Shown here: piece after piece, positions 4 through 58,846 of the stretch
How positions within the stretch are numbered: the stretch's first letter is position 1
Layout: the number at the start of each line of letters is the position of its first letter
NCBI GenBank assembly: GCA_021783475.1
Contig: JAJXTU010000002.1
Coordinates: forward strand, 1-60,479
Length of the DNA stretch: 60,479 nt
Reading direction: 5' to 3'
Origin: a bacterium
GTDB lineage: Bacteria > Thermodesulfobiota > Thermodesulfobiia > Thermodesulfobiales > Thermodesulfobiaceae
Made by a program: the position numbers and the translations under genes
Notes under the pieces: model-generated
The model's database searches: none
Seen by the model: only the letters and a program-made list of their open reading frames with translations
What the model was told of the DNA's origin: nothing

Positions 4-3000
4 GTTAGAGAAATTCCCTGATGAATAAGGGATTGCGACATACACCCTTGAAATCTCCTAAAGCATCTGCTATTATTGTTAGAGAAATTCCCTGATGAAT
101 AAGGGATTGCGACTTATTTAATATTCTCCTGAGTAAAATTCATTTTTAGTCAACTGGTTAGAGAAATTCCCTGATGAATAAGGGATTGCGACTTGGGATA
201 AACCCGTATTTATACAAAGACAAACTTAAGTTAGAGAAATTCCCTGATGAATAAGGGATTGCGACTAAATGTACAAGTTTTCAGTGTAACACTTTTCTTG
301 ATAACTGTTAGAGAAATTCCCTGATGAATAAGGGATTGCGACCCGTCATACTGTACGAAAAACCCTTGATCGGTTTTGACTGTTAGAGAAATTCCCTGAT
401 GAATAAGGGATTGCGACTCTATAATAGAACTCGGGATAACCCTTATCCCAAGTTAGTTAGAGAAATTCCCTGATGAATAAGGGATTGCGACCTGAATCGG
501 GGAAGTGAAGGTTTAAATCTCCACCACTCTTAGTTAGAGAAATTCCCTGATGAATAAGGGATTGCGACTATATATCAATAGTCATTCTAATTACCTTCCT
601 TTCTTGTATGTTAGAGAAATTCCCTGATGAATAAGGGATTGCGACCCAATTATTTCTATAGGCCTTAACGCCTATACAAGAAAGGTTAGAGAAATTCCCT
701 GATGAATAAGGGATTGCGACTTTATAGGGACTCTTTTGCGAGTCCCTTTTTCAATAACGTTAGAGAAATTCCCTGATGAATAAGGGATTGCGACTTTCAA
801 CTTGTCATTTTTCATTACTTTACCTCCCTAACATGTTAGAGAAATTCCCTGATGAATAAGGGATTGCGACTTTTTACCACTCTTAGACTCACTATACAGT
901 GAGTCTAAAGGTTAGAGAAATTCCCTGATGAATAAGGGATTGCGACTTGTATAGAGATTCAACCCAATGCTAACAATCTTATTATCGATGTTAGAGAAAT
1001 TCCCTGATGAATAAGGGATTGCGACTCATTGAGAATGACTTCAAGCTTAAAGTCCTTCAGGTCTATGTTAGAGAAATTCCCTGATGAATAAGGGATTGCG
1101 ACTTTATTATATTTTTCTTTCAAAATTCCAAATATTCTTTTAGTTAGAGAAATTCCCTGATGAATAAGGGATTGCGACTTTAATTGAATAGTATAATTAC
1201 CACCCATTTCTCCCATGTTAGAGAAATTCCCTGATGAATAAGGGATTGCGACTTTATGTTTATTTTTCTGTCTATTTCGTTTATTTCTATTTCTGTTAGA
1301 GAAATTCCCTGATGAATAAGGGATTGCGACTCTTTCTGAATAAGAATACCAGACAGGCATTTTATAAATGTTAGAGAAATTCCCTGATGAATAAGGGATT
1401 GCGACTTTTTTTAAGCGTTTTAGCAAAATCAGGATCGACCTCACTAATTAAAGTTAGAGAAATTCCCTGATGAATAAGGGATTGCGACTTGTTATCTATC
1501 ACTACTGCAAGCCTCTTAAACTTATCGTGTTAGAGAAATTCCCTGATGAATAAGGGATTGCGACTTCTCTATTAGACCATAAGAGTATCTTTCTATCATA
1601 TCGTTAGAGAAATTCCCTGATGAATAAGGGATTGCGACATATTTGCCATCTCTGGCAAATTGCAGTAACTCTTGTTAGAGAAATTCCCTGATGAATAAGG
1701 GATTGCGACTGTCATTTAATGCCAACTGGCGATTTCCGCCAGTTGTAAACGTTAGAGAAATTCCCTGATGAATAAGGGATTGCGACTCATTTTTCACTCT
1801 CCCTTGAATCAGATTTGTAAAACTACTAGTTAGAGAAATTCCCTGATGAATAAGGGATTGCGACTTTTGTTTTCCTTTTTCATTTTGCACTCTCCTAGTT
1901 AGAGAAATTCCCTGATGAATAAGGGATTGCGACCAATGCTTTCGAGGGATATCATTCTTTACTGGGCAATCCAGTGTTAGAGAAATTCCCTGATGAATAA
2001 GGGATTGCGACTACACCGAACATCTTTTCATACAGTTTTGTTATTCTATTGGTTAGAGAAATTCCCTGATGAATAAGGGATTGCGACAATCATACAAGTT
2101 GCATTTCTTACAAATTTGATAATATCAGTTAGAGAAATTCCCTGATGAATAAGGGATTGCGACTAATCTTCCAATGTCTATGGGGTATTTCATTCTTTAT
2201 AGTTAGAGAAATTCCCTGATGAATAAGGGATTGCGACTATGTTACATATTCCGATAACTCATCTAATAGTTCTGATGTTAGAGAAATTCCCTGATGAATA
2301 AGGGATTGCGACAAACTCTAACTCCACTGAAAACATAGGTAATCTTCCCTCAGGTTAGAGAAATTCCCTGATGAATAAGGGATTGCGACATCTAATAGTT
2401 CTGATATTCTTGTTATTGGTCTCATACTATAGTTAGAGAAATTCCCTGATGAATAAGGGATTGCGACTTAACTTCCTGTGCCAGGGTCTTGTTTTCTACA
2501 ATCGCTTTTAAGTTAGAGAAATTCCCTGATGAATAAGGGATTGCGACTTACTCATATTCACTTGACCAACTTTTTTAGACATTTTTTGTTAGAGAAATTC
2601 CCTGATGAATAAGGGATTGCGACTTGTTACCGCACACCCTACACTTCATTTTTTTCTCCTTCGTTAGAGAAATTCCCTGATGAATAAGGGATTGCGACAT
2701 AACCATATCTCCTACTCGGAACGGGTGGTTATTCTCGTTAGAGAAATTCCCTGATGAATAAGGGATTGCGACATAATTACTTCGTTACTCCCAATCTCTA
2801 AATATTCTATCTGTTAGAGAAATTCCCTGATGAATAAGGGATTGCGACTTAAAAGTATAAACTCCTTCGCTCATTTTTCTATAGGTTAGAGAAATTCCCT
2901 GATGAATAAGGGATTGCGACCCAAGAAAGGTAATCATATAACATTTACCAACTTCCATTTTGTTAGAGAAATTCCCTGATGAATAAGGGATTGCGACTCT

Positions 3001-3909
3001 GTATCACATTCTGCCAACTCATCTAACAAACCCGATATGTTAGAGAAATTCCCTGATGAATAAGGGATTGCGACCTACCGTTGGTATAAACCCGTGTTTA
3101 TACAGTAACAAGCTGTTAGAGAAATTCCCTGATGAATAAGGGATTGCGACTTTCTATTAGCTCAAGCCCAGCCTGATTAAACAATGCTAATGTTAGAGAA
3201 ATTCCCTGATGAATAAGGGATTGCGACTCATCAATCCTATTCCCGCATACCCTACACTTCATGTTAGAGAAATTCCCTGATGAATAAGGGATTGCGACGT
3301 AAACATAAAGATTTTCCGTGTAACCTTTTTCTTGATAGTTAGAGAAATTCCCTGATGAATAAGGGATTGCGACTATACTTTCTATTGCTAATCTATTTAC
3401 GATTAGCAAATTTCCAGGTTAGAGAAATTCCCTGATGAATAAGGGATTGCGACATTACCTCCTTTTATTTTTCCTTTAACAAAGGGACTCTCTGTTAGAG
3501 AAATTACCTGATGAATAAGGGATTGCGACTTAAAATAGAACTCTGAGAAAAATAAATTCAAAATCTGATGTGTTAGAGAAATTCCCTGATGAATAAGGGA
3601 TTGCGACGTTTTCTTGGTCTTCACTTTCATACATCTGAAGAAGTTTTGAGTTAGAGAAATTCCCTGATGAATAAGGGATTGCGACAGATAATCTGAAAAC
3701 AAATAATCTGGCATTGTATTGTTAGAGAAATTCCCTGATGAATAAGGGATTGCGACTTCAAAAACATAACCCCTGCCGCTCTTTAGACCAACCTTTGTTA
3801 GAGAAATTCCCTGATGAATAAGGGATTGCGACACATCTTCATATTTTGGTTTAAATATTTCTTCTGGTTTAATGTTAGAGAAATTCCCTGATGAATAAGG
3901 GATTGCGAC
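4..3909 (+). CRISPR. CRISPR array, 52 repeats / 51 spacers within the window, truncated at the left edge
   Basis: 36-bp repeat GTTAGAGAAATTCCCTGATGAATAAGGGATTGCGAC repeated at 4, 78, 157, 230, 307 ... 3874; spacers 33-47 nt. Repeat contains the inverted stem TCCCT/AGGGA and ends in ATTGCGAC, which resembles the 8-nt 5' tag of type I-B/III crRNAs. This suggests the + strand is the crRNA strand. The only variant repeat (3494) is near the right end, consistent with a trailer end there. Strand is inferred. Confidence 0.98.
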
Positions 3910-5053: not shown

Positions 5054-8000
5054 TTATGATTTGCTTATTTCATTCGCGATTAATTCTGTTTGTTTTAATA
5101 CTGTTTCGGTAGCCAAGAGTTCCATATCTGGGGGATAGCCATATTTTCTTAGCGTTCTCTTTACTATAACGCGCAGCTTTGCTCTTGCGCTCTCTCTAAT
5201 CGTCCAGTCAATCGAGGCATTTTCTTTGACTCTTTGATATAGTACCACAGCAAGCTCTCTGAGCTTCTCTTTCCCCATCAAATCCTTTGCGCTTTGGTTA
5301 TCGGCCACAGCGGTATAAAAGGCATACTCGTAATCTGAAAGCCCCATTTCTTCTGGTTCTTTGTCTAAATCTTTGATTTCTTGGGCGAGCTTTATCAATT
5401 CATCTATTACTTGAACTGCAGTAAGTATTTTGTTTTGGTAGTTTTTTATGGATTTTTCCAGCATATTAAGTAAATTCTGACTCTGAACAAAACTTTTCAT
5501 TATTCTGCCCTTAATCTCATTATTAAGTAGTTTTTTTAAGATTTCGATAGCGATATTTTTGTGTTTCATATTTTTTACTTCCAGAAGAAATTCTTCTGAG
5601 AGAACAGAAATATCTGGTTTTTTAATGCCTGCAGCGTCAAATATATCGATTATCTGCTCGCTTACCAAAGCTTTATCTATTACCTGTCTTATGACTGTTT
5701 CCATCTCTTCATTTGTTTTTCCTCCCTCTTTAATCTCAAATTTCACCAATCTTGATTTTACCGCTTGGAAAAAAGCTACCTCCTCTTTAATAATCAATGC
5801 TTGCTCATGAGGGATTGCAATAGCAAATGATTTTGATAGAGCGCTTACCTCGTCTATAAACCTCTTTTTGCCATCTTCAAGGGAGAGAATGTGCTCTTCT
5901 GCAGCAAGAATTATAGATAACTTCTGTGATGTATCAGATGTAAAGTATTTTTGGTAATCAAAGCCATAAAACATCTGAGAGACGACTTCTCGTTTTTCCA
6001 TCATCACTGAAACGGCCTCATCTTGTATAATTGCCGGATCCCCTTTCCCGCCGCTTTCGGAATAGAAGGAAAGAGCCTCTTTGAGGTCAGATGCAAGCCC
6101 AAGATAGTCAACGATTAGGCCTGATGGTTTATCCTTGTAAACCCTATTTACTCTGGCAATGGCCTGCATTAGCGTATGACCCTTCATCGGCTTGTCAATA
6201 TACATTGTGTGCAAACAGGGGACGTCAAAACCAGTTAGCCACATATCGCGGACAATCACGAGCTTTAGCTCATCCTGGGGATTTTTCATCCTATCGCCAA
6301 GCAGTCTTCTTTGGCTTTTGTTGGTATGGTGTTTTGCAATTTCTGGGCCATCTGCTGATGATGAGGTTATTACCACTTTGATAGTGCCCCTTTTCAAGTC
6401 GTCGTTATGCCAGTTAGGGCGTATTTTGATTATCTCTTTGTATAGCTTGGCTGCACTTCTACGAGACATTGTTACAATCATTCCCTTTCCCTCAAACGCT
6501 TCCTGTCTTTGTTCGAAATGATACACAATGTCGCTGGCAAGCTGTTTTAAACGCTGTTTGCTCCCTACGATAGCTTCAAGCTTGGTCCATTTTGCTTTTA
6601 GCTTTTGTGTTTCTGTGAGCGTTTCATATTCAAGTTCTTCGTCCAATTCTTTTACTAATCTTTTGCCGTCCTCGGTTAAGCTTACCTTTACAAGCCGACT
6701 CTCATAGAATATGGGCACGGTGGATTTATCTCTTACTGCCTGAGCGATATCATATACATCAATATAGTTTCCAAAAACTGCAGGGGTATTTCTATCAGAT
6801 TTTTCAATTGGAGTTCCAGTAAATCCAATAAATGTGGCGTTGGGCAAGGCGTCACGTATGTATTTGGCAAAGCCGTATTTGATCTCTCCAGTTTGAGAGT
6901 CGATTTTAGCTTTAAATCCATATTGCGTCCTGTGTGCCTCATCAGCGATGACGATAATATTTTTTCGATCTGATAACATGTCGTAAGTATTATCATCATC
7001 GGGCTGAAATTTCTGGATAGTGGTAAAAACGATACCTCCGGACGCCACTTTCAAAAGTTGTTTTAAGTGCTCTCTATTTCTTGCCTGAACAGGATCTTGT
7101 CTTAGGATCTGTTTTGATGCTGCAAAGGTATCAAAGAGCTGATCGTCAAGGTCGTTTCTATCGGTAATTACCAAAATTGTAGGATTATCGAGCATCTGTA
7201 TAACCTTACCTGCATAAAAGACCATAGAAAGGGATTTTCCGCTTCCCTGGGTATGCCAGACAACGCCTGCTTTTTTGTCTCCTTTTGGTTGTGTTTTTGC
7301 GCTTGGGAGATAAGGATATTCGGGGTTGTCTTGAGAGATGTAGTCTGCATTAAGGCCTACAGCTCTTAGAGTGGACTCTGCTGCCTTGTTTACTGCATAA
7401 TACTGATGATATGCAGCAATCTTTTTACTTGTTTTTATATTAATTTGCCCTGTTTCTTCATCCTCTTTTTTGGATCTATCGAAAACAATAAAATATCTTA
7501 TCAAATCAAGAAGAGTCTCTTTATTAAGCATATTTGAAATTAATATTTCAATCTGACTTAAATGATGGGATGCTTCAGATCTACCATCGACTGTTTTCCA
7601 GGTCATAAAGCGATCGGTTCCGGCTGAAAGACTTCCAGCTTTTGCCTCAAGACCATCTGATATAATCAAAACTTCATTATATTTAAAAAGCGTTGGTATT
7701 GTATCTTTATAGGTTTCCAGCTGCCTAAATGCTGAGCGAATAGTAGCTTGTTCATCTGCAGGATTTTTTAGCTCCATTGTCACGATGGGTAGTCCATTTA
7801 TAAAAAGTATGATATCAGGCCTTTTATTAATATTATTTTCAACAACTTTAAATTGATTGACTACTAAAAATTCGTTGTTTTCTGGGTTGTTAAAATCTAT
7901 AAGCCAGACAAGATCTCCTCTTTCCTCTCCACCTTTACGATAGGTAACTTTAACGCCTTCTGTCAGCATACGATGAAATATCTCATTGCTGGCTATCAGT

Positions 8001-8242
8001 TCGGGGGAGTGAAATCGTCCAATCTCTTGAATGGCATATTTTAGAGCATCGAATGGGATCTTTGGGTTGATTCTCTCTAAGGCTTTTCCCAGCCTTTCAA
8101 ATAGGATCACATCTTCAAAGCTATTCCTTTCTGGATACTTTCCATCAGGTGCAATATCAGGTCCAAAAAGATAGCTATAGCCTTGATGTTTAAGAAGTTC
8201 AATTGCGAAGCTTTCAATTTGTGATTCAGATAATTTAGTCAT
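5054..8242 (-). CDS. hsdR: Type I restriction endonuclease subunit R
   Basis: 1062 aa; nuclease-like LFINGLPIVTMELKNP, Walker A HTQGSGKSLSM, DEAH box ADEAHRTQYG, SF2 motif GFTGTPI. Confidence 0.96.
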   Translation of the reverse strand: MTKLSESQIESFAIELLKHQGYSYLFGPDIAPDGKYPERNSFEDVILFERLGKALERINPKIPFDALKYAIQEIGRFHSPELIASNEIFHRMLTEGVKVTYRKGGEERGDLVWLIDFNNPENNEFLVVNQFKVVENNINKRPDIILFINGLPIVTMELKNPADEQATIRSAFRQLETYKDTIPTLFKYNEVLIISDGLEAKAGSLSAGTDRFMTWKTVDGRSEASHHLSQIEILISNMLNKETLLDLIRYFIVFDRSKKEDEETGQINIKTSKKIAAYHQYYAVNKAAESTLRAVGLNADYISQDNPEYPYLPSAKTQPKGDKKAGVVWHTQGSGKSLSMVFYAGKVIQMLDNPTILVITDRNDLDDQLFDTFAASKQILRQDPVQARNREHLKQLLKVASGGIVFTTIQKFQPDDDNTYDMLSDRKNIIVIADEAHRTQYGFKAKIDSQTGEIKYGFAKYIRDALPNATFIGFTGTPIEKSDRNTPAVFGNYIDVYDIAQAVRDKSTVPIFYESRLVKVSLTEDGKRLVKELDEELEYETLTETQKLKAKWTKLEAIVGSKQRLKQLASDIVYHFEQRQEAFEGKGMIVTMSRRSAAKLYKEIIKIRPNWHNDDLKRGTIKVVITSSSADGPEIAKHHTNKSQRRLLGDRMKNPQDELKLVIVRDMWLTGFDVPCLHTMYIDKPMKGHTLMQAIARVNRVYKDKPSGLIVDYLGLASDLKEALSFYSESGGKGDPAIIQDEAVSVMMEKREVVSQMFYGFDYQKYFTSDTSQKLSIILAAEEHILSLEDGKKRFIDEVSALSKSFAIAIPHEQALIIKEEVAFFQAVKSRLVKFEIKEGGKTNEEMETVIRQVIDKALVSEQIIDIFDAAGIKKPDISVLSEEFLLEVKNMKHKNIAIEILKKLLNNEIKGRIMKSFVQSQNLLNMLEKSIKNYQNKILTAVQVIDELIKLAQEIKDLDKEPEEMGLSDYEYAFYTAVADNQSAKDLMGKEKLRELAVVLYQRVKENASIDWTIRESARAKLRVIVKRTLRKYGYPPDMELLATETVLKQTELIANEISKS

Positions 8243-10943
8243 GGTTAATATCTTTTAACTTTGATTTTAATAAACCTATATCTTTTCCTATATTTTTTTT
8301 TGATGACTTTAAAATTTTTAAAACTTTATTTTCAGTTTCAGGTGTCCAATATATTTTCAATTTTTCTTTTGCTCTTGTTATTGCTGTATAAAAAATACTA
8401 TGCGTTATTAATTCGTCAATTTCATTAGATATAACAATCTTTACAGAATCATATTCTAAGCCTTGTGCTTTATGAATAGAAACAGCATATGCAATTTGAA
8501 AAGGAATTACTGTATTTGGTGATTCGTCATCTTCATCTGTGTTTTTATATTTATTAATACTAAATCTTATTATAGAATTGTTATTATCTAAATTTTCTAT
8601 CAATTCACAATCATAACCTGAGATATCTATCTCATTAATACTTTTACAAACTTCAATATCAAACTGAATTTTATCTTCAAAGTTATTTATGCCAACAATT
8701 TTTCCCTTTAAATTATTATATATCGCAGGACCAAATCTTTTTGTTTCATTAAATAAAATTGGGTCACCTATTTTAAATATTTGTTCTCCCAAGTATATTG
8801 GATTATTCCTATTGTTGGCTTGTAAAAAAATATTGATATTATTTATTCCATAAAAACCATCATAATTTAACAATAAAATTATTTCGTCTTCGTTTTCATT
8901 CTTTTCAAAAATAGAGTTATCTAATTTGGTGGTATAACCTTTTTTTACTAGATATTCTACTATATCATCGTTTAAACTTCTAACTTTATCCCATAAATCA
9001 AGTAATTCTTTATTCTTTGCACGATAAGGTTTTGTTAATTCAGCTATAGATTCTTCAGGAATAAATTTTTTTAAAATACTGAACCAATTACCAAATCTAA
9101 TTGCTTCAATTTGATAAGTATCACCTACCAATATAAGTAATTTATATGGAACTTTTTTTAAAATTTCAACCATATCCTTATTGCTAACAGTGCTACATTC
9201 ATCAACAAAGAGTAAACCATAATTATCTAACTGATTTTGTGATAAAAACTTGGTAATCGTTTTATATTCACAATTTGAAGCATGAACTTTCCCTTTTAAG
9301 TTGTCTACAGCAGGGTTTGTATTAGCTAAAAATAATTTTTTTTGCTCATTGAAAAATTGAGATATATGATTTATTAAGGTTGATTTTCCTGTTCCAGCCG
9401 CACCGTAAATAATAGCTACATGAGATTTTTCAAATATTTTTCTAATTGCCTCTTTTTTCTCATCACAATCAATTATATTTGGGGTTTCTTTTAACCAATA
9501 ATCAACAGAGTCTTTATAACCCCTTACTCCAGATGTAGTTAATTCTTTAATTTTTTTTATAATCTCAATAGTATCTGATTCATATTTAGAGATGTAAACA
9601 AAATTATTGTAAGTTTTTATACTTCGTATTTCATTATGTCCTTTATATAATGAATCATTGTATTTTTTTATTAAGCTATCTATATGTTCAAATCCACAGA
9701 TATCATCTTTTTTAGTATATAACTCTCCCTTTATTTCGGTATTATTTTTAATTATTCTTGCCAAAAATTCGTGTTCTCTATTAGTGAAATCTAAACATTC
9801 AAACAAATCACTTATACTCGGATTGTGATTCACAAGAGAAGTGCAAAATGGCATTTGGTCAAATGGTATACAACCATATTTTAATTTTAAGCCTTGTTTA
9901 TAGTTGCAAAAGTTATTATCGAATTGTTGTTGTTTAATAATTTTATTTTTAAGACTATACAGTAAGTATTTTATTACGTTACTACCATTAGCATTGTTTT
10001 GTATCAACTCATTACATTTGTCTAAAACAATTAAAAATTCTTTACTTTCACTGTTTTTAGTTAAACCAATTTTTAATTCTTCGTAATTTTCTGCAGTAAC
10101 TAAATCAACTAGATTATAATTAGATTTAGTTAAAAATCTCATTAAATTTTTGTATTCCTTATGCCCACTTGAAATATTTAAATTTAAACCGAAAATACTA
10201 GCAAAATTATTCAATTCACACGGGCGTATGGAAACTACCCAATCTTCTATTATTCTGATAGGCATATCTTTATCTAAGATATTAATAGAATCATTTCTTA
10301 GCCAAAGTTTTATAGCATAATGTGATGGTATATCAAATTTTGTATAAGCTATCAATCTATCAAATTTACTAATATTATCGCTTGCTCTTGTAAATGTTAC
10401 TTCGGAATATACTTTTTTGTTTACAAAAAATGGTTTTATCTTTTGAATATAATATCTGTCAGGATAGGAATTATTGTTCTGGTTATTAATTTTTTGAACT
10501 ATTTTTTCATAATATTCTTGTGTAGTTTGATCCATGTTAAGCGGAAATTTATCAATATTTTGAAGTACTTCTAAATTATATTTTTCTTTAAGATAAGATT
10601 TTATTTTTAATAGATATTCATAATATTTTAGCATTAATCGCTCTGAACTATCTTTGTCGTATGTATAGTGAGAAGATACATTCTGTAAAAAGTCATGAAA
10701 TTTGCTTAAAAAGCTAAAGTTTCCTTTTGATTTAATATAATTAATGGCTTTTTTTATATTATCATATGAATTATTAATTTCTTTTCCATCGCTGTAAGTT
10801 AATAGAGAAATATGTTCAACAAAGTCTCTCAGCTCCTTTAGAATGTTTTGTGAAAGTAATCCTCTTTCCTCTTTGTTAAATATTTCTATATTTTCACAAA
10901 TATTTTGATCAATTGTTAAAATATTTTTTTCTATTTCTTTCAT
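8235..10943 (-). CDS. SF1-type (RecD/TraA/UvrD-like) ATPase/helicase embedded in the hsd operon
   Basis: Walker A IIYGAAGTGKSTLINHI, Walker B LLFVDECSTV, LVGDTYQIEAI, C-terminal SIHKAQGLEYDSVKI and YTAITRAKEKLKIYW. Overlaps hsdR by 8 nt and hsdS by 4 nt. Confidence 0.85.
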   Translation of the reverse strand: MKEIEKNILTIDQNICENIEIFNKEERGLLSQNILKELRDFVEHISLLTYSDGKEINNSYDNIKKAINYIKSKGNFSFLSKFHDFLQNVSSHYTYDKDSSERLMLKYYEYLLKIKSYLKEKYNLEVLQNIDKFPLNMDQTTQEYYEKIVQKINNQNNNSYPDRYYIQKIKPFFVNKKVYSEVTFTRASDNISKFDRLIAYTKFDIPSHYAIKLWLRNDSINILDKDMPIRIIEDWVVSIRPCELNNFASIFGLNLNISSGHKEYKNLMRFLTKSNYNLVDLVTAENYEELKIGLTKNSESKEFLIVLDKCNELIQNNANGSNVIKYLLYSLKNKIIKQQQFDNNFCNYKQGLKLKYGCIPFDQMPFCTSLVNHNPSISDLFECLDFTNREHEFLARIIKNNTEIKGELYTKKDDICGFEHIDSLIKKYNDSLYKGHNEIRSIKTYNNFVYISKYESDTIEIIKKIKELTTSGVRGYKDSVDYWLKETPNIIDCDEKKEAIRKIFEKSHVAIIYGAAGTGKSTLINHISQFFNEQKKLFLANTNPAVDNLKGKVHASNCEYKTITKFLSQNQLDNYGLLFVDECSTVSNKDMVEILKKVPYKLLILVGDTYQIEAIRFGNWFSILKKFIPEESIAELTKPYRAKNKELLDLWDKVRSLNDDIVEYLVKKGYTTKLDNSIFEKNENEDEIILLLNYDGFYGINNINIFLQANNRNNPIYLGEQIFKIGDPILFNETKRFGPAIYNNLKGKIVGINNFEDKIQFDIEVCKSINEIDISGYDCELIENLDNNNSIIRFSINKYKNTDEDDESPNTVIPFQIAYAVSIHKAQGLEYDSVKIVISNEIDELITHSIFYTAITRAKEKLKIYWTPETENKVLKILKSSKKNIGKDIGLLKSKLKDINHD

Positions 10944-12148
10944 ATTCTTACTCTCACTTCTCCGCTCATGAGTTTTGGTAGCAGTATATCTCTAAGTTTT
11001 TCCAGTGCACTGATTTGATTATTGTTATTTATTATTATATTAAAATAATCACTCAATATTGATACCTTCTCTTTTATAATAGATAGTGGCGGCACAATTA
11101 ATTTTGTTTTATAAATATCGTTTTTATTAATATGAGGTTGGGCTCCTCCAGTTTCGTTTAAAATAATTTCTTTGATGGTATGTTTGATCCAAAAGAATAC
11201 AAATTCTTTCGGATAGTTTTTATTCGGTATTATGCCAACTACTGACTGATTTGTACAAGTATCTATTTCTAATAAGCTTATTTGTCCAAGAGTTGCCCCT
11301 GTAATAGCTATAACGATTGTTCCTTTTGGTAAAATTTTAGTATTCGAATTTTCAAGACCAAGTTTTGTTATATATCGTGTTGGTTTATATATTCTAAATT
11401 TATTTACCTCACCAGAATTTATCCAAGGCACATCCCCATCCCAATACTCTTGCTTAGTTGTTGATGGAGTCCCACCTAACACAGTTGTTAATTGTTCGCC
11501 AATTGTTGAGGTTCCCCACTCCTCTTTTGCCTCTTCTACAAACCACCTTCTAAAAAGCGTTTCTGCCATCTGCTCTAACGTATTGTTCTGGCGGTGGAGA
11601 AGGTCTATCTTGTCATCCAAAGATGAAAGCACAGAGGTAATGGCTTTTTGTTCGAGAAAGGGTGGCATATAAAATTCATAATTTTTTATTCTAGATGGCG
11701 ATGTATGCATAATAGATGTACCACTTGCAGAGTTTACTATAAAACAGTGATAATCTGGAGTTCTTGTTAGCCAGTATATAAATTCTTTACATACATTATT
11801 ATCAATAAAATCTAATAAACCAATTCGTTGATTGTGTAAGAATATTTTGTTTTTGTAAAAAGGTATCTTTGCAGAGTATCCAAGTGTATCAGAATTTCTA
11901 CTGAGGTCAGTCATTGTAATAATAAAACTTCCTTCAGACAATACGTATTCTCTTGGAAATTGACCTTTGTAATATTTCTGTTTTTCAGACTTAAAGCCTC
12001 CACCTATGTTGAAATTACCAGGAGTTAATAAAATGGCTTCTGTTTCGCCATAGGTAATACCCTCTCCTTTAAATGCGAAACCGTGTTTTATATCTACTAC
12101 TTCCCCCAACTTAACCCTTTTCCACCCATCAGGCACTTTTTCGTTCAT
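10940..12148 (-). CDS. hsdS: Type I restriction-modification specificity subunit S
   Basis: 402 aa, two TRD-like halves (VPDGWKRVKLGEVV...; EEWGTSTIGEQLTTVLGGTPSTTKQEYWDGDVPWINSGEV), LPKLMSGEVRV C-terminus. Confidence 0.93.
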   Translation of the reverse strand: MNEKVPDGWKRVKLGEVVDIKHGFAFKGEGITYGETEAILLTPGNFNIGGGFKSEKQKYYKGQFPREYVLSEGSFIITMTDLSRNSDTLGYSAKIPFYKNKIFLHNQRIGLLDFIDNNVCKEFIYWLTRTPDYHCFIVNSASGTSIMHTSPSRIKNYEFYMPPFLEQKAITSVLSSLDDKIDLLHRQNNTLEQMAETLFRRWFVEEAKEEWGTSTIGEQLTTVLGGTPSTTKQEYWDGDVPWINSGEVNKFRIYKPTRYITKLGLENSNTKILPKGTIVIAITGATLGQISLLEIDTCTNQSVVGIIPNKNYPKEFVFFWIKHTIKEIILNETGGAQPHINKNDIYKTKLIVPPLSIIKEKVSILSDYFNIIINNNNQISALEKLRDILLPKLMSGEVRVRI

Positions 12149-13298
12149 CGCAGGCTCCTATTATTTCAGCAAAATCAACCTTTTTTATGCTTTTTTGTAA
12201 AAATCCTAAAGCATATAGTTCTTCTTTACAATGTAAAATCCTTCCTGCAATTATGCTCTTATGAGTTTTAAACTTTTCTGCAAAATCTTCAATAATTTCT
12301 ATAATAGCTTCTTCATTTTTGCCCCCTGGCGGTAAAGAACTTATTTTGTCTAAAATTTGATTGAATTCCCTTTCGTCTAATAAATAGTTTGCTGCAAATC
12401 TATCTGCACCTCTTTCTTCTTCATTTTTATCTTCAATATCTTCAATATTTTCCAGAAAAATATTTTTTTTATTTCCGTGAAGAATTACATGTCCGAGTTC
12501 ATGAAAAAGAGAAAACCAGAATATATCATATCGTTTGTATTTGTCTGTAAGTTGGATTACAGGATTGTCATCTATCCATCTAACCACTCCATTTATGGAT
12601 GTTTTTGGTAAATTTACAGTATAAACGACCTTAACTCCAACCTTAAGGCAACATTCCTGAATCTTTTTTAAATAGTCTGATGTTTCTGATCTCATAATTT
12701 CTTTTAACTCTATTATAATATCTTTAAGTTTTTTCCTATTAAATGATTGTGCATTTAATTTACTTGCCTCTATTTCTCCCATTCTTAAAAGTGCAGAGAT
12801 GGCGTAAGGATTTTTTCTGTTTTTGAGAGATATTCTGAAAAAAACTGGAACTTCTTGATTAAAATAGATGTTTTTCCATGCTTCGGAAGTTGAAATATTG
12901 AAAAATGATAACAATTCTTTTGCTCTTTCTTTTAAATTGCGAACGCTTTTTACATATCCTAATTTTGCCAACATTGAATATGGAAAATTTTTAGACCAGG
13001 GAATATCAATATTTAACTTATCTCTTTCTTTTTCTCTTGCAATAAATTCGTTATAGCTTGATTGCTTTGATATCCAGAAACTTGCTGGTATATGTAATAC
13101 TTTCTCAAATTGAATTGCCATCTCTGGAGTAATTGAGCACTTTCCATTTAAGACGTTAGAGATAGTTTTTATAGGTTTCCCAATTCTTATTGCAAATTCC
13201 TTGGGAAAAATGTTTAATTCTTCCAGTTTCTCCCTTAAAGTTATTCCAGGATGAACTGCATAATCTGGTTTTAGCATATTTTTTTCTTCCTTAATCAT
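12129..13298 (-). CDS. HigA-type XRE antitoxin fused to ImmA/IrrE-like metallopeptidase domain
   Basis: N-terminal HPGITLREKLEELNIFPKEFAIRIGKPIKTISNVLNGKCSITPEMA (HigA-like HTH); C-terminal FHELGHVILH (HExxH). Confidence 0.88.
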   Translation of the reverse strand: MIKEEKNMLKPDYAVHPGITLREKLEELNIFPKEFAIRIGKPIKTISNVLNGKCSITPEMAIQFEKVLHIPASFWISKQSSYNEFIAREKERDKLNIDIPWSKNFPYSMLAKLGYVKSVRNLKERAKELLSFFNISTSEAWKNIYFNQEVPVFFRISLKNRKNPYAISALLRMGEIEASKLNAQSFNRKKLKDIIIELKEIMRSETSDYLKKIQECCLKVGVKVVYTVNLPKTSINGVVRWIDDNPVIQLTDKYKRYDIFWFSLFHELGHVILHGNKKNIFLENIEDIEDKNEEERGADRFAANYLLDEREFNQILDKISSLPPGGKNEEAIIEIIEDFAEKFKTHKSIIAGRILHCKEELYALGFLQKSIKKVDFAEIIGACDERKSA

Positions 13299-13308
13299 AA
13301 TGAACCCC

Positions 13309-13686
13309 TTAGTGATAATTTATAATCTCAATTATCTCAATTTCAGTAACTTCTGAATATATCAAGCTTCCATCTGCTCTTTTAGGCAAAGGATTGTTAG
13401 CTGGTTTATATATAAGTCTATACGGTTGTTTAAGATCACATGCAAAATATCCTTTTTTGTCGCCTTCTAAAAGATGATGACGTCCTGGTAACTCCATAAG
13501 ATTTTCAAGATTTTCAATCTTTGAAATATCGTCTATCCTTTGCATAATTTTGTCCGCCATATCATTGCCATATTGTTTTATTAGCTCTTTTTTAGAATTT
13601 AATATGTTTCTTAATTTTCTTTTCTTTACAATAATTTTCACAATAAATATAACCCTAACACAAAATAATGTCAATATTTTTAACAC
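13309..13686 (-). CDS. RelE/HigB-like toxin
   Basis: KKRKLRNILNSKKELIKQYGNDMADKIMQRIDDISKIENLENLMELPGRHHLLEGDKKGYFACDLKQPYRLIYKP. The annotated GTG lies inside a palindrome, so the real start is probably downstream (GTG AAA ATT ATT GTA AAG). Confidence 0.82.
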   Translation of the reverse strand: MLKILTLFCVRVIFIVKIIVKKRKLRNILNSKKELIKQYGNDMADKIMQRIDDISKIENLENLMELPGRHHLLEGDKKGYFACDLKQPYRLIYKPANNPLPKRADGSLIYSEVTEIEIIEIINYH

Positions 13687-13703
13687 TAAGTGTTAAAAAT
13701 ATT
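13673..13703. promoter_or_regulatory. 31-bp perfect palindrome, candidate toxin-antitoxin operator
   Basis: AATATTTTTAACACT-A-AGTGTTAAAAATATT: 15-bp arms, 1-nt centre, immediately upstream of the higB-like gene. Confidence 0.65.
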
Positions 13704-13774
13704 TTAACAGATTTTGCTTTATTGTTTGTCATAATTTTATATATATAAATATTTTCGATCATATTTTTAGAAAT

Positions 13775-15298
13775 TTATTTATCAATGTCATTTATTTGGA
13801 TTTTTTCCAGGTTTTCCAGTATTAACTTATTGAGATTCTCTTCTTCTTTTAGCTGTTCCATAAATTCTTTCCTTAGCTTTGAAAACCTCTCTACAAAGTC
13901 AAAGTCGTCTTCTTCTTCGGGTAGCCCCACATATCTGCCTGGAGTTAGCACATAGTCAAGAGCTTTTACCTCTTCAATGGTTGATGATTTACAAAAACCA
14001 GAGATATCTTCGTATTTGCCAGAGGCTGATTTTGTCTGTGCCCAGTTGTGATATGTTTGTGCTATCTTCTGTACATCTTCATCTGTCAAGATCTTTGTTC
14101 TTCGATTTATAAGTACCCCCATATCTCTTGCATCTAAAAAGAGAATCTCGCCTTGCCTGGTCGTCTTGTTCCTTCTCAAAAACCACAGTGAGGCAGGAAT
14201 CTGAGTATTTAGAAATAGCTTGGGTGGAAGATTTACAACACAATCTACTAAGTCATCTTCAATTATTTTTTTTCTGATTTCGTACTCTCCGTTTGTTTTG
14301 GTAGTTAGAGCCCCCTTCGCCAGAACAAAGCCAGCCCTTGCGCCAGGTGCAAGGTGATAGATGAAGTGTTGGATCCAGGCATAGTTGGCATTTCCTTCTG
14401 GAGGGATGCCATACTTCCAGCGCCCATCCTTTCGCAACAGTTCACCGTTCCAGTCGCTATCGTTAAACGGGGGATTGGCAATTACGAAATCTGCCTTTAG
14501 GTCTTTGTGGAGATCGTTTAAGAAAGATCCCTCATTGTTCCATTTAACCTGGGAGCTATCAATTCCTCTAATTGCAAGGTTCATTTTGCAGAGTCGCCAG
14601 GTGGTTTGGTTGCTCTCCTGACCATAGATGGATATATCGTTAACTTTTCCCTGATGGGCAAGAACGAACTTTTCAGATTGTATGAACATACCGCCTGAAC
14701 CGCAGCACGGGTCGAAAACTCTTCCTTTGTATGGCCCTAACATTTCAACAAGGAGTTCTACTACGCTTCGCGGTGTATAGAACTGTCCGCCTTTTCTGCC
14801 TTCTGCTAAAGCAAATTCGCCCAGGAAGTATTCGAAAACATGTCCCAGGACATCAGAACTTCTTTTTTTAGCTTCAATTAAAGTGATATTGCTTATAAGA
14901 TCGATTAATCCGCCCAAGCTTGTAATGTCCAGATTCCCTCTGGCATAAACCTTTGGCAAAACTCCTCTAAGTGAAGGGTTTTCTTTTTCTATAATATCCA
15001 TTGCATCATCAATGTATTTGCCAATCTCAGGAATCTTTGCATTAGCTTGTAGATATGACCAGCGCGCTTTTTGCGGCACATAGAAGACGTTTTCAGCTTT
15101 ATATTCGTCCCTATCTTCTGGATCGGAGAATTCCTTGACTTTCAACTTCTCGTATAAATCTTCAAATGCGCTTGATATGTATTTCAGAAAAATCAAACCT
15201 AAGACCACATGTTTGTATTCTGCAGCATCAATATTTTTCCTTAGCTTGTCTGCAGCCTTCCAGAGCTGTTTTTCCAGCGGTTCATTGTTATTTTTCAT
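13775..15298 (-). CDS. hsdM: Type I restriction-modification DNA methyltransferase subunit M
   Basis: 507 aa; GGQFYTPRSVVELLVEML, VFDPCCGSGGMFIQSE, DFVIANPPFNDSDW (NPPF). Confidence 0.97.
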   Translation of the reverse strand: MKNNNEPLEKQLWKAADKLRKNIDAAEYKHVVLGLIFLKYISSAFEDLYEKLKVKEFSDPEDRDEYKAENVFYVPQKARWSYLQANAKIPEIGKYIDDAMDIIEKENPSLRGVLPKVYARGNLDITSLGGLIDLISNITLIEAKKRSSDVLGHVFEYFLGEFALAEGRKGGQFYTPRSVVELLVEMLGPYKGRVFDPCCGSGGMFIQSEKFVLAHQGKVNDISIYGQESNQTTWRLCKMNLAIRGIDSSQVKWNNEGSFLNDLHKDLKADFVIANPPFNDSDWNGELLRKDGRWKYGIPPEGNANYAWIQHFIYHLAPGARAGFVLAKGALTTKTNGEYEIRKKIIEDDLVDCVVNLPPKLFLNTQIPASLWFLRRNKTTRQGEILFLDARDMGVLINRRTKILTDEDVQKIAQTYHNWAQTKSASGKYEDISGFCKSSTIEEVKALDYVLTPGRYVGLPEEEDDFDFVERFSKLRKEFMEQLKEEENLNKLILENLEKIQINDIDK

Positions 15299-16026: not shown

Positions 16027-19000
16027 TTAGAACTTGAAACTTAGCTTTGCATCGACCATTGATGCGCTGTAATTGTCGCGTCCAATCTCCGTGTTGGAAT
16101 CGAGATGCACTGAAAAGTTCTTTCCTGAATATACATTGATATTTGCGCCAATTATTCCGAAGTCTCTGCCCAGTTGCTGGGACTGGAAATTGAATGGTAT
16201 TCCAACCTGTGCAAGGCTAGCATTAATGTTTCTGCTGTCATTGGCAAACTCATGTGCGTAGTTCGCATACAATTGAAATTTAACCAAAGACTTGCCGTAC
16301 TTTACGGTGCTAGCGAGCCTTACACCTGGGCTGAATTGGAGCGATTCGGCGTGCTGTGAACCAACTTGCAGATCGAGCGAGTTTGCCCCTGTTTCTCCAA
16401 GTCCATTGATCTTGATGCTGGAATATGAGAGGCTGGCCATAGGCGTGATTACAACGTTTCCAACTCTTAGATCGTAGCCTGCTTCTCCGTAACTATTCAA
16501 CATGTTGCCTGTTGTGGAGCCAGATGCTGTACGGTTGATAAAAGATATCTGACGATTCGTGTCAAAAGAGTTCACAACGTACCCTGCCGAACCGAATGCA
16601 TAGAATTTGCCTGGGAAGTAAGATGCATATAGTATGATTGGAACGGTTTGGTTTTGCACATTTCCCATATTATCGTTGAAGCCTGCATAAGTATGGGCAT
16701 ATCCGCTGGCTATACCGACAAGCAGATCCTTTCTTACTTTATAGTCTGCTCCTACAGTAAGACCGACAATGGAAAAGTTATACCCTGTTTCGTTTGCTGT
16801 AGAATCCTGAGAACCCCAGAAAACTTGTGGATCGGCATAGAAATTCCAACAGTTTAACTTTTTTGTTTCATTAGGTCCATAAGAACCAGTGTTTTCACCT
16901 GCAAGTCTGGCGTATCGGTTGCTTGTGATCCTATCGATGATATCTTGTTGGAAGAAGTTGGATGCTGCAAAACCCAGATTAGCTAAAGAGGCCGCCATGT
17001 CAGGTGAGATCTGTTGATAGGCGTTGGCAACTGAATTGGCTTGGGAAGTTGGTATACTGTCGATAGTGTGCAAAACAGTTCCTATGTCTCCTGTAGTGGT
17101 TGCGGAAATATCGTTCAGCATATTTCCAACCTGCAGTTGATTCTGTGTCAGAGTGAGCACCGAGTTAGTATAATTACGAGATACGCTGATTGATATTCCT
17201 GGGTCGGCTATATTCCCTGCTGTTCCCACCAATGTCGCTGTGAAATTGGCAACCGTAGGTATGCCTGTTATATTTTGTGCATCCTTAATAATATCAAATG
17301 TTTGGCCTGGAGTAGGTACAAAACCGCCCTGGAGCACAGGTTCTATTGTGCCACCATTGAACGTAACTGTTCCAGTGTTGGACATTTCGAGCCAGTTATA
17401 GTTGCTAGGCGAAGCTATTCCTATTTGCAAAGCTGAGTTTTTGCCCTGCGTATAATTGCCAGTAAAAATTGACCCAGCTTTTGAAGGCATAAAGACCCCG
17501 CCTTCATTGTCAAGGTTTCCGTCGATTGAGTTTGTGCTAAGTGTCCCGCCATTTAGGTGATAGGTTCCACCGTTCATTTCGATGCCGTATTGAGCATTAT
17601 TGCCGGTAACTATATTGATTCCACCGGTCTGGGTGAACGTTCCTGCACTAGCGCCTCCTACCCATTCGAAATCGGACTGTAAGGTGCCCCCGCTGAGATT
17701 GTAGGTTCCTTTGCCCGCACCAGCGTTAATTGAGTCAAATAAGTCCGTACCCAGAACCAGGCCGTTGGTTACTATATTTATCCCACCCGTTTGATTGAAT
17801 GTTCCCGTACTGCCTGCATCGCCTATATCCTCACCGGGTATGTAACCTGAGGAGCCGAGCGCTCCGTTTCCGCTGGCAGTAAGTGTCCCGCCGCTGAGAT
17901 TATAAATACCCGTGCCGGGCGAGATGTTTTTGGTTGGAGCCAAAGGATAAGTGACTTGGGATCCAACAAACAGCCCAACCAGGACTGTATTTGTCCCGCC
18001 TGTCTGATTGAACGTTCCAAATCCCTGACATGTGCCGATGACTTCGCCGCCTGTAGAGTTAACGATTCCGCCGTTTGCAGAGCCAACCAATCCGGAAGCA
18101 ATAAGGCTGCCTCCACTGAGGTTAAATGTGCCTATGCCACCCACACCTGCTCCGTAAATGTCTGACCCGACAGCCAAGCCGCCATCTGTGGCAATATTTT
18201 GTCCGCCTGTTTGATTAAAGGTCCCTGTACCTCCTGCATCTCCGACGACCTCGCCACCATCGCCACTAAGGCCTGCCACTGCATTTCCGCCTGTGTTAAG
18301 GATGCCGCCGCTGAGGTTATATATACCTATACTTCCTGTAGCTAATTTATTAGAATAGCGCCATGCAGCGTCAGATCCTATAAATACCCCATTGTTGTCC
18401 AGATTTTGTCCGCCTGTCTGATTGAACGTTCCTATACCTGAGCTATCTCCTATTAGCTCAGCTCCGGAAGCCTCGAGTAATCTGGTGACAATAATTGTGC
18501 CTCCGCTGAGATTATATGTGCCAGTTGATGTCTTACCCGATACGAAAACGTCTGATCCGACAAACATTGTGCCACCTGTAATAGTATTTGTTCCACCTGT
18601 CTGTTTGAACGTCCCTGTGCCTCCGCTGACTCCTATGTATTCCCACGAAAAACCAGCGCTTGTTCCCAGTGCTTGTAGATTGCCAGTCCCGCTGAGGTTG
18701 TAGGTTCCAAGAGCGTTGTATTGTGCGCCTACATTGAGCGCATTGTAGACTGTATTTAAGTAACCCGCCTGGTTCATTATTCCGCCGTTCAAGCTTAGAC
18801 CAACCGATTCATTGTTGTATGAAGTGTTCCCAGTGATACTATAGGGCGAGTTGCCTACGCTTGTGTCAACGGTGAGGTTTGCTGCTCTGACAGGGATCTG
18901 CCCCCATAGCTGTGCAACTGCCAGAAATGAAAGGGAGAAAAACAAAATTTTCACACTTCTGCCAAACTGCACAGAGTTTGCTTCTTTCCACCCCTTATTT

Positions 19001-19122
19001 TTGAAGAATTTTAAGTAAATTGGACATATTATAAAGCGATTTTTTCTAAAACATTCCTGTAATACTTCCCGAATCAAATTAATATTATCCTGAATATGCC
19101 CCCGAATGTAACTTTGACCCAT
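16027..19122 (-). CDS. Autotransporter (type Va-like) with repetitive passenger and C-terminal beta-barrel
   Basis: Repeated GTYNLSGG.L / GTFNQTGGxN modules; C-terminal barrel ending VDAKLSFKF; signal-like VKILFFSLSFLAVAQLWGQIPVRAAN. Start uncertain: the first ~35 codons lie in a duplicated 90-bp element. Confidence 0.88.
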   Translation of the reverse strand: MGQSYIRGHIQDNINLIREVLQECFRKNRFIICPIYLKFFKNKGWKEANSVQFGRSVKILFFSLSFLAVAQLWGQIPVRAANLTVDTSVGNSPYSITGNTSYNNESVGLSLNGGIMNQAGYLNTVYNALNVGAQYNALGTYNLSGTGNLQALGTSAGFSWEYIGVSGGTGTFKQTGGTNTITGGTMFVGSDVFVSGKTSTGTYNLSGGTIIVTRLLEASGAELIGDSSGIGTFNQTGGQNLDNNGVFIGSDAAWRYSNKLATGSIGIYNLSGGILNTGGNAVAGLSGDGGEVVGDAGGTGTFNQTGGQNIATDGGLAVGSDIYGAGVGGIGTFNLSGGSLIASGLVGSANGGIVNSTGGEVIGTCQGFGTFNQTGGTNTVLVGLFVGSQVTYPLAPTKNISPGTGIYNLSGGTLTASGNGALGSSGYIPGEDIGDAGSTGTFNQTGGINIVTNGLVLGTDLFDSINAGAGKGTYNLSGGTLQSDFEWVGGASAGTFTQTGGINIVTGNNAQYGIEMNGGTYHLNGGTLSTNSIDGNLDNEGGVFMPSKAGSIFTGNYTQGKNSALQIGIASPSNYNWLEMSNTGTVTFNGGTIEPVLQGGFVPTPGQTFDIIKDAQNITGIPTVANFTATLVGTAGNIADPGISISVSRNYTNSVLTLTQNQLQVGNMLNDISATTTGDIGTVLHTIDSIPTSQANSVANAYQQISPDMAASLANLGFAASNFFQQDIIDRITSNRYARLAGENTGSYGPNETKKLNCWNFYADPQVFWGSQDSTANETGYNFSIVGLTVGADYKVRKDLLVGIASGYAHTYAGFNDNMGNVQNQTVPIILYASYFPGKFYAFGSAGYVVNSFDTNRQISFINRTASGSTTGNMLNSYGEAGYDLRVGNVVITPMASLSYSSIKINGLGETGANSLDLQVGSQHAESLQFSPGVRLASTVKYGKSLVKFQLYANYAHEFANDSRNINASLAQVGIPFNFQSQQLGRDFGIIGANINVYSGKNFSVHLDSNTEIGRDNYSASMVDAKLSFKF
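19016..19105. repeat. 90-bp direct repeat copy A, at the 5' end of the autotransporter ORF
   Basis: taaattggacatattataaagcgattttttctaaaacatt...atcctgaatatgcccccga, matching copy B at 19158-19247 with few mismatches. Confidence 0.9.
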
Positions 19123-57686: not shown

Positions 57687-58020
57687 CTTGACAAATAGTT
57701 TGTTTTCTCATATATAATATAAACAGCCTTTAAGAGGGTTTGCTAAGTTAAATAAACGTCGATGGCGACTTCATCTTAGCTTGAGCTTGGAGTTCTTCAC
57801 TCATATCAAAGTTTGAGTAAAAAATTTGAAGTTTGCGGGTGAGATTTCATCGCCCACATCCTGCGCGCCCGTAGCTTAGCTGAGCAGAGCGACGGACTTG
57901 GAGTCCAAAGTTCGAGGATTCTCCGAGTTATATATCCTAAAACGTTTGTCATGGATATATAACCTGGGCTTTATTAAGCCCACGGGGTATGTTTGGAAAC
58001 GAACACACCTTCACATATGA
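57687..58020 (+). promoter_or_regulatory. Promoter plus structured leader upstream of modA (element E1 and its expression platform)
   Basis: TTGACA (57688) ... TATAAT (57713); GCTAAG/CTTAGC stem enclosing GTCG-ATGG-CGAC; further hairpins to the modA RBS. The first ~150 nt recur at 60323. Confidence 0.65.
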
Positions 58021-58036
58021 AAAGGAGGAAATAATT

Positions 58037-58846
58037 ATGAAAAAGATTGTTATTGTATGCTTTGCTTGTTTGATTGTCGTTTCTTCTGTGTTTTTGATTT
58101 CAGGCTGTTCGTCTAGTAAATCCACTAACTCTAAACAAACAACCATTACCATTTCAGCAGCAGCAAGTCTTACCGAATCTTTGAATAAGATTGTTGCAAA
58201 TTTTGAAAAAACTTATCCCAATGTTTTAGTTAGGGTTAACTATGGTGCATCTGGTGCTTTGAGACAACAAATAGAGCAGGGAGCCAAGGTAGATCTGTTC
58301 CTTCCTGTTTCTTTAAAAGATCTACAAACCTTAGAGTCTGAAAAATTAATAGATCCATCTAAATCAGAAGTTTTTGCTAAGAACATACTTGTTTTAATAG
58401 TTCCAAAGGGCAATCCGTTGAACATAAAGGGCGTTGATGATTTGAAGAGGGAGGACGTTAAGCGTATAGCTATTGGTGCAGTCCCAAGTGTGCCAGCTGG
58501 TGTTTATGCCAAAGAAAGCATGGAAAAAGTAGGATTGTTTAACGAGCTTAAAGATAAATTTATTTATGCAAAGGATGTTAGGCAGGTTCTTGATTATGTA
58601 AACACTTCAAACGTTGATGCTGGTTTTGTATATAGGACTGATGCAGCGATTGTTAAAGATGTGGAAATTGCAAGTACGATTCCCGATCTAAATCATAAAC
58701 CGATCGAATATTATGCAGCTATTATTAATTCGTCAAAAAATCAAGATATTTCCACAGAATTTATGAAATACCTGTTAGACAAGGACTCACAAAAGATTCT
58801 TAGTGGATATGGCTTTTTGCCTCCTAAGACTTCAAGCGAAAATTAA
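58037..58846 (+). CDS. modA: Molybdate/tungstate ABC transporter substrate-binding protein
   Basis: Lipoprotein signal ending SGCSS; ITISAAASLTESLNKIVANFEKTYPNVLVRVNYGASGALRQQIEQGAKVDLFLPVS; SD AAGGAGG. Confidence 0.93.
   Translation: MKKIVIVCFACLIVVSSVFLISGCSSSKSTNSKQTTITISAAASLTESLNKIVANFEKTYPNVLVRVNYGASGALRQQIEQGAKVDLFLPVSLKDLQTLESEKLIDPSKSEVFAKNILVLIVPKGNPLNIKGVDDLKREDVKRIAIGAVPSVPAGVYAKESMEKVGLFNELKDKFIYAKDVRQVLDYVNTSNVDAGFVYRTDAAIVKDVEIASTIPDLNHKPIEYYAAIINSSKNQDISTEFMKYLLDKDSQKILSGYGFLPPKTSSEN

Follow-up and report, generated by a model that had tools for sequence, protein, structure and literature searches.

Strand-polarized and hairpin-rich spacers in a predicted type III-A CRISPR array of Thermodesulfobiaceae

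The window analyzed here, a stretch of 60,479 nucleotides from a Thermodesulfobiaceae genome (assembly GCA_021783475.1, contig JAJXTU010000002.1), begins with a CRISPR array in which many spacers, when read on the reverse strand, resemble the start of a gene. The question raised by this locus is why its spacers face transcripts with a single polarity, and whether gene starts as such have any part in it. A first-pass annotation of the sequence had offered RNA-targeting (type III) interference, RNA-derived acquisition (RT-Cas1) or strong selection for gene-start targets; of these, the type III assignment held, whereas RT-Cas1 and a strong selection of starts did not. We consider it quite probable that the array is the memory of a III-A system, antisense to mRNA by selection, with the start pattern following from polarity and with an adaptation machinery that prefers hairpins.

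The array and the strand of its crRNAs

The array occupies positions 4-3909 of the window and is truncated at the left contig end. It consists of 52 repeats (GTTAGAGAAATTCCCTGATGAATAAGGGATTGCGAC), with the copy at 3494 being the sole variant (1-base change), and of 51 spacers of 33-47 bp. Its orientation was derived from congeners, in which the leader is conserved and each copy ends in a sigma-70-like promoter directed toward the array, with transcription running along the repeats as GTTAGA...ATTGCGAC; in the congener G001, this promoter has 11/12 sigma-70-like matches and adjoins the first repeat. Given this direction in the congeners, + would by homology be the crRNA strand of the window array as well, as the first-pass annotation had supposed, and the crRNAs would be antisense to mRNA. 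Mature crRNAs would then derive from the + strand and are predicted to bear AUUGCGAC as a tag of 8 nt.

The spacers singled out earlier were all recovered among the 51, with positions and reverse-strand sequences as reported. A Shine-Dalgarno motif followed by a start codon (SD+ATG) is present on the reverse strand of spacers 8 (569-609, MTID), 11 (795-834, MKNDKLK), 25 (1865-1897, MKKENK) and 35 (2624-2662, MKCRVCGN), four of the five cases that had been called clear; in the fifth, spacer 24 (1787-1828), where the reverse strand ends in GGGAGAgtgaaaaATGA, the SD-like match is only 4 nt long. The reverse strand of spacer 46 (3454-3493) does end in AAAAGGAGGTaat, an SD without a start codon. 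The starts proposed without an SD are individually weak, but two of them receive further backing, both on the reverse strand. Spacer 43 (3228-3262) starts at the ATG (MKCRVCGNRID) of a homologue of the spacer 35 target gene, both reading MKCRVCGN, and the two spacers have a 14-nt stretch in common in the same orientation. In spacer 32 (2390-2431), the frame MRPITRISELLD continues into the peptide SELLDELSEYVT of spacer 30 (2238-2276), with which it has a common target; judged by translation, this target is also common to spacer 40 (2998-3038).

The cas genes and the adaptation module

In this genome of 1.9 Mb in 138 contigs (95% complete), the single copy of cas1 lies on contig C14, whose end truncates it. 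On this contig, PADLOC and Pfam identified the partial Cas1, a TPR + primase-polymerase protein (CAPP), Csm5, Csm4, Csm3, Csm2, Cas10 and Cas6, together with a divergent CARF-HEPN gene and a second CARF-HEPN protein with a Csx3-like tail. As Cas10 and all of Csm2, Csm3, Csm4 and Csm5 are present, the CRISPR system of this genome is, as judged from its genes, type III-A (Csm) with a CAPP-linked adaptation module, and the effector is predicted to be of the RNA-sensing kind, which bears out the type III interference proposed before. Cas1 is encoded by an ORF of its own, which overlaps the CAPP gene; its N-terminus is complete and without RT, and the RVT_1 profile gave zero matches in the 95%-complete genome, which speaks against RT-Cas1. 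The cas2 gene was not found in this assembly, where cas1 is cut at the contig end, and it is seen in congeners; thus, the TPR-AEP primase-polymerase adjoins cas1 here and its adjacency to cas2 is observed only in the congeners.

The comparison within the genus comprised four genomes. The CAPP proteins of two congeners are 87% and 76% identical to that of this genome and are accompanied by a complete Cas1, in the order CAPP, Cas1, Cas2, PD-(D/E)XK nuclease ORF, conserved leader and arrays of the same repeat family. The array lies beside the module in these two congeners; we infer that the contig with the array joins physically onto the cas contig, on which Cas6 is present. The III-A arrays of the congeners hold 93 spacers in G001, 49 in G002 and 91 on a second G002 contig. 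This last array (contig C29, L098:2-6987, 92 repeats) has its own leader copy and is located away from cas genes, beside restriction-modification-like genes. The same genus carries a second, type I-B-like system with Cas8b/TM1802, Cas7, Cas3 and Cas4.

In common with type III-A (Csm) systems with CARF-HEPN, the locus has Cas10, Csm2-5, Cas6, CARF-HEPN effectors, 33-47 bp spacers and the 3' repeat end ATTGCGAC, but here the array and the cas genes are on separate contigs and the polarity exceeds the type III average in PMC8482600. It also resembles the CAPP-linked type III modules (PMC8211822), in which TPR + AEP primase-polymerase is directly upstream of cas1 and cas2; the difference is the PD-(D/E)XK nuclease ORF added in the congeners, and the activity of the module here is putative. 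In a separate locus (L048, genome G090), reverse transcriptase and CAPP domains are joined with TPR repeats within a single 1003-aa protein.

From these gene families, Cas6 would process the + strand transcript, and the resulting crRNAs would be antisense to mobile-element mRNAs. Csm with its crRNA would bind the matching transcript, upon which Cas10 would become active and signal to the CARF-HEPN ribonucleases, with cyclic oligoadenylates as the putative signal to the CARF effectors whose genes are present.

Strand polarity and the gene-start pattern

Within the window array, the reverse complement is purine-rich in 46/51 spacers (46:5, P=2e-9) and ATG occurs 47 times on the reverse strand versus 11 on +; as the quoted SD+ATG junctions are likewise confined to the reverse strand, the single polarity described in the first-pass annotation stands. 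Over the four III-A arrays of the genus, the purine polarity is 226:48, counted over spacers that, within one array, are not independent of each other. Two tests independent of base composition agree. Among the four arrays, 55 pairs of homologous spacers are oriented the same way versus 2 opposite, both of the latter being palindromes, and the ratio is 22:0 when hairpin spacers are removed; spacer-to-spacer homology can gauge polarity without a known target genome. Likewise, 49/50 spacers translating to the recurrent target genes A (MKNFKKLTVLIDGQEVLSLPY...) and B (MLYAVFEGKDGLVYVRPVV...), composites pieced by hand from overlapping spacers, are antisense. An example is spacer 20 (1489-1528), with DKFKRLAVVIDN on its reverse strand as the start of gene A (score 32). 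In contrast, the I-B arrays of the genus, with 120 distinct spacers, show no bias (51:64), and the ratio is 909:851 in 53 type I-like arrays, a class defined by a fetched stretch with neither Cas10 nor CAPP, such that some arrays may be misfiled. Type III arrays reach 60% without CAPP and, in other lineages, 66% with CAPP, the orientation in the comparison set being assigned by the repeat end.

Searches for the targets themselves were run at several levels. The whole array gave no usable protospacer against phages and plasmids; the spacers gave only marginal and mostly AT-rich or simple-sequence matches against 196 relatives, and nothing but arrays in the genus genomes. In IMG/VR, neither an exact pattern nor degenerate ones led to a usable protospacer, and two composite peptides likewise found nothing usable there; the composites gave the same outcome in Pfam, PHROGs, phages, plasmids and genomes. 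The viral and plasmid search that had been suggested thus yielded no protospacer in any collection covered, and the readings of strand and gene position come from the spacers themselves. Composition, homologous pairs and recurrent genes, which do not rely on protospacers, point to mRNA-complementary spacers with near-absolute polarity. Judged in this indirect manner, neither a random strand choice nor a DNA-only type I system, the outcomes that would have told against the earlier claim, was found.

III-A targets are also matched by two I-B spacers, one over 23/24 nt and the other being a gene A homologue, and the targets therefore have a DNA stage. This weighs against the idea that spacers were acquired from RNA (RT-Cas1) or against an RNA virus, which would suit spacers that are all antisense to coding strands, the conserved coding hairpins (see below) and the lack of any DNA match in the searches. 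Since the I-B spacers share these targets, and considering that the genome has no RT, that Cas1 is stand-alone and that CAPPs copy RNA poorly (PMC8211822), such an origin is very improbable. The RNA-virus target, raised by the conserved coding hairpins, was dropped because of the same I-B matches.

The preferred reading attributes the single orientation to selection: because only mRNA-complementary crRNAs work, wrong-way spacers would be useless and would be lost, with biased capture possibly helping. In Thermus type III systems, phage-selected spacers complementary to transcripts are credited to selection (Artamonova 2020, PMC7515739), and unselected type III spacers are described there as derived from both strands. 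The present arrays resemble that case in having spacers complementary to transcripts, there of phages; it was a short-term experiment with known phages, and the available text notes no hairpin or start signature. The average spacer polarity of type III, ~65% (PMC8482600), agrees with such selection; these III-A arrays are far above it, so that something besides selection may be at work.

A different proposal is a preference for initiation regions, either in the capture or in the retention of spacers. In the window array, the reverse strand holds 4 spacers with a 5-nt SD and ATG versus 1.7 in dinucleotide shuffles (P=0.09) and 2 with a 6-nt SD versus 0.39 (P=0.06); the + strand of the 51 spacers holds none at k=4, 5 or 6, just as the first-pass annotation had found. 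Pooling the four arrays of the genus makes the excess significant (SD+ATG 17 versus 8.8 shuffled; 6-nt SD 10 versus 2.0), and other CAPP arrays have 13 6-nt SD+ATG versus 2.3 in dinucleotide shuffles. Since shuffles ignore the gene starts of real elements, real type I-like spacers, trimmed to an equal length of 35 nt, were used as the control. Counted in either orientation and length-matched, SD+ATG is found in 58/1119 type III spacers (5.2%) and 59/1529 type I-like ones (3.9%; OR 1.36, P=0.10), 6-nt SD+ATG in 2.1% versus 1.5% (P=0.24), and the frequency is not significantly above that of the in-genus I-B arrays either (P=0.79). What does differ is the orientation, 48:11 in type III versus 27:32 in type I-like (P=1e-4). 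Gene-start enrichment thus looked strong against shuffles and was not significant against type I-like spacers.

With a frequency close to that of type I-like spacers and a skewed orientation, the gene-start pattern is mainly a consequence of strand polarity, and start junctions enriched in themselves, let alone the strong selection for gene-start targets that had been suggested, are not borne out. The share of SD and ATG would be about that of random slices of elements with close-packed genes, viewed from the mRNA side; a striking SD/start-codon pattern can therefore arise from strand polarity alone. Many G002 spacers match the first codons of two gene families, which would favor a preference for initiation regions, but these may be short genes, in which near-start matches weigh little. 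A review of laboratory III-A spacers does give an enrichment 10-50 bp downstream of start codons (PMC9048733), and a small true excess of this kind may accompany the polarity, although it is not significant here. A preference for starts as the cause of the pattern is, overall, unlikely.

Hairpin-forming spacers and their acquisition

The hairpin share is a stronger signal than the gene starts and was overlooked in the first-pass annotation. A perfect stem of at least 7 bp occurs in 8/51 window spacers versus 0.9 expected, and one of at least 8 bp in 6 versus 0.23. These are spacers 6 (418-455) and 9 (646-684), with 7-bp stems; 10 (721-758), 22 (1639-1673) and 41 (3075-3114, a homologue of spacer 3 at 193-229), with 8 bp; 23 (1710-1750) and 45 (3374-3417), with 9 bp; and 12 (871-910), with 11 bp. 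No strand is assigned to the hairpins, and several sit within reading frames: the reverse strand of spacer 23 reads FTTGGNRQLALND, part of gene A, and that of spacer 12 reads LDSLYSESKSGK, homologous to a G001 spacer (LDSLYSESSTG) that runs into ESSTGKSTIVFT of gene A. Intergenic terminators were considered as their source and rejected, as only spacer 10, with TTTTT after the stem on +, fits.

The other III-A arrays have hairpins in 13/93, 11/49 and 13/91 spacers, and random host-DNA 40-mers in 2.0-2.4%. Length-matched, the share is 12.2% in III-A, 4.5% in the genus I-B arrays (P=0.024) and 1.5% in type I-like arrays, with 5.1% in other CAPP arrays and 3.5% in type III without CAPP; when only one spacer per family is kept, III-A differs from I-B with P=0.08 and from type I-like with P=3e-9. 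Several tests, that for hairpins among them, were picked after the data had been seen, and the other CAPP and I-B arrays are checks unused in forming the idea.

These numbers suggest that the CAPP-Cas1-Cas2 adaptation module would favor hairpin-forming DNA. In S. thermophilus III-A, acquisition favors hairpin-forming DNA, as relayed by a review (Zhang 2021, via PMC9048733), and the present case is alike in its hairpin preference and in having no RT; going by that summary, it differs in that its arrays are natural and belong to an unrelated, CAPP-bearing lineage, in being mRNA-antisense and in a start-codon excess that is not significant. The hairpins could instead come from a hairpin-rich pool, e.g., structured or single-stranded DNA elements, sampled without preference. 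I-B spacers of the genus are also somewhat raised, above shuffles, and at the coding site WVTTW the stem pairing is kept through three pair types (C-G, A-T, G-C), which suggests structure in the elements. As only captured variants are visible, this conservation may reflect selection on the element or a capture filter. Against such a pool stand the excess of III-A over in-genus I-B given above and that of other CAPP arrays over type I-like ones (P=4e-5), so we regard it as the lesser possibility, albeit one to be kept in mind.

Polarity and hairpins might also arise together at acquisition, if CAPP-Cas1-Cas2 drew on transcribed genes whose single-stranded DNA is folded or displaced, and inserted the captured pieces in a fixed orientation. 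The near-absolute polarity above the ~65% average, the association of hairpins with type III and CAPP, and the ability of CAPPs to prime and extend on single-stranded DNA agree with this. As CAPPs act on DNA in priming and extension and are poor at copying RNA (Zabrady 2021, PMC8211822), capture of single-stranded DNA is more plausible than that of RNA. However, CAPP arrays of other lineages reach only ~66% polarity, and the unselected Thermus spacers came from both strands; directional capture as the source of both features is therefore not likely. That CAPP-bearing III-A modules in general build an mRNA-complementary memory at acquisition, by fixed-orientation capture of single-stranded DNA and without reverse transcriptase, is a yet more speculative notion. 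Selection as the cause of polarity, combined with capture of folded DNA, remains what we infer.

The array is a natural case of known type III behavior, with polarity and hairpins that are unusually extreme. Selection versus directional capture as the source of transcript-facing spacers can be asked directly in these arrays, and the combination of near-absolute polarity and hairpin share, beside unbiased I-B arrays of the same genus, is testable with one adaptation module.

Some further observations concern the spacers and the rest of the window. The 5' spacer ends (40-3873) carry T in 65% of cases versus 39% predicted by composition, and in 55% versus 34% over the four III-A arrays, an excess absent in the I-B arrays; this may be a trace of prespacer trimming. 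The array is adjoined by a type I restriction-modification cluster (HsdR, HsdS, HsdM; 5054-15298), in which HsdR and HsdS flank a superfamily 1 helicase of 902 aa, and HsdS and HsdM flank an HTH/IrrE-peptidase protein and a small toxin-like ORF. Further along, the window contains an autotransporter of 1031 aa whose repeat units are of the GTF(N/K)QTGG type (16027-19122) and a molybdenum/tungsten cofactor riboswitch (57909-58043; Rfam RF01055, 83 bits) immediately upstream of the ORF at 57989-58846.
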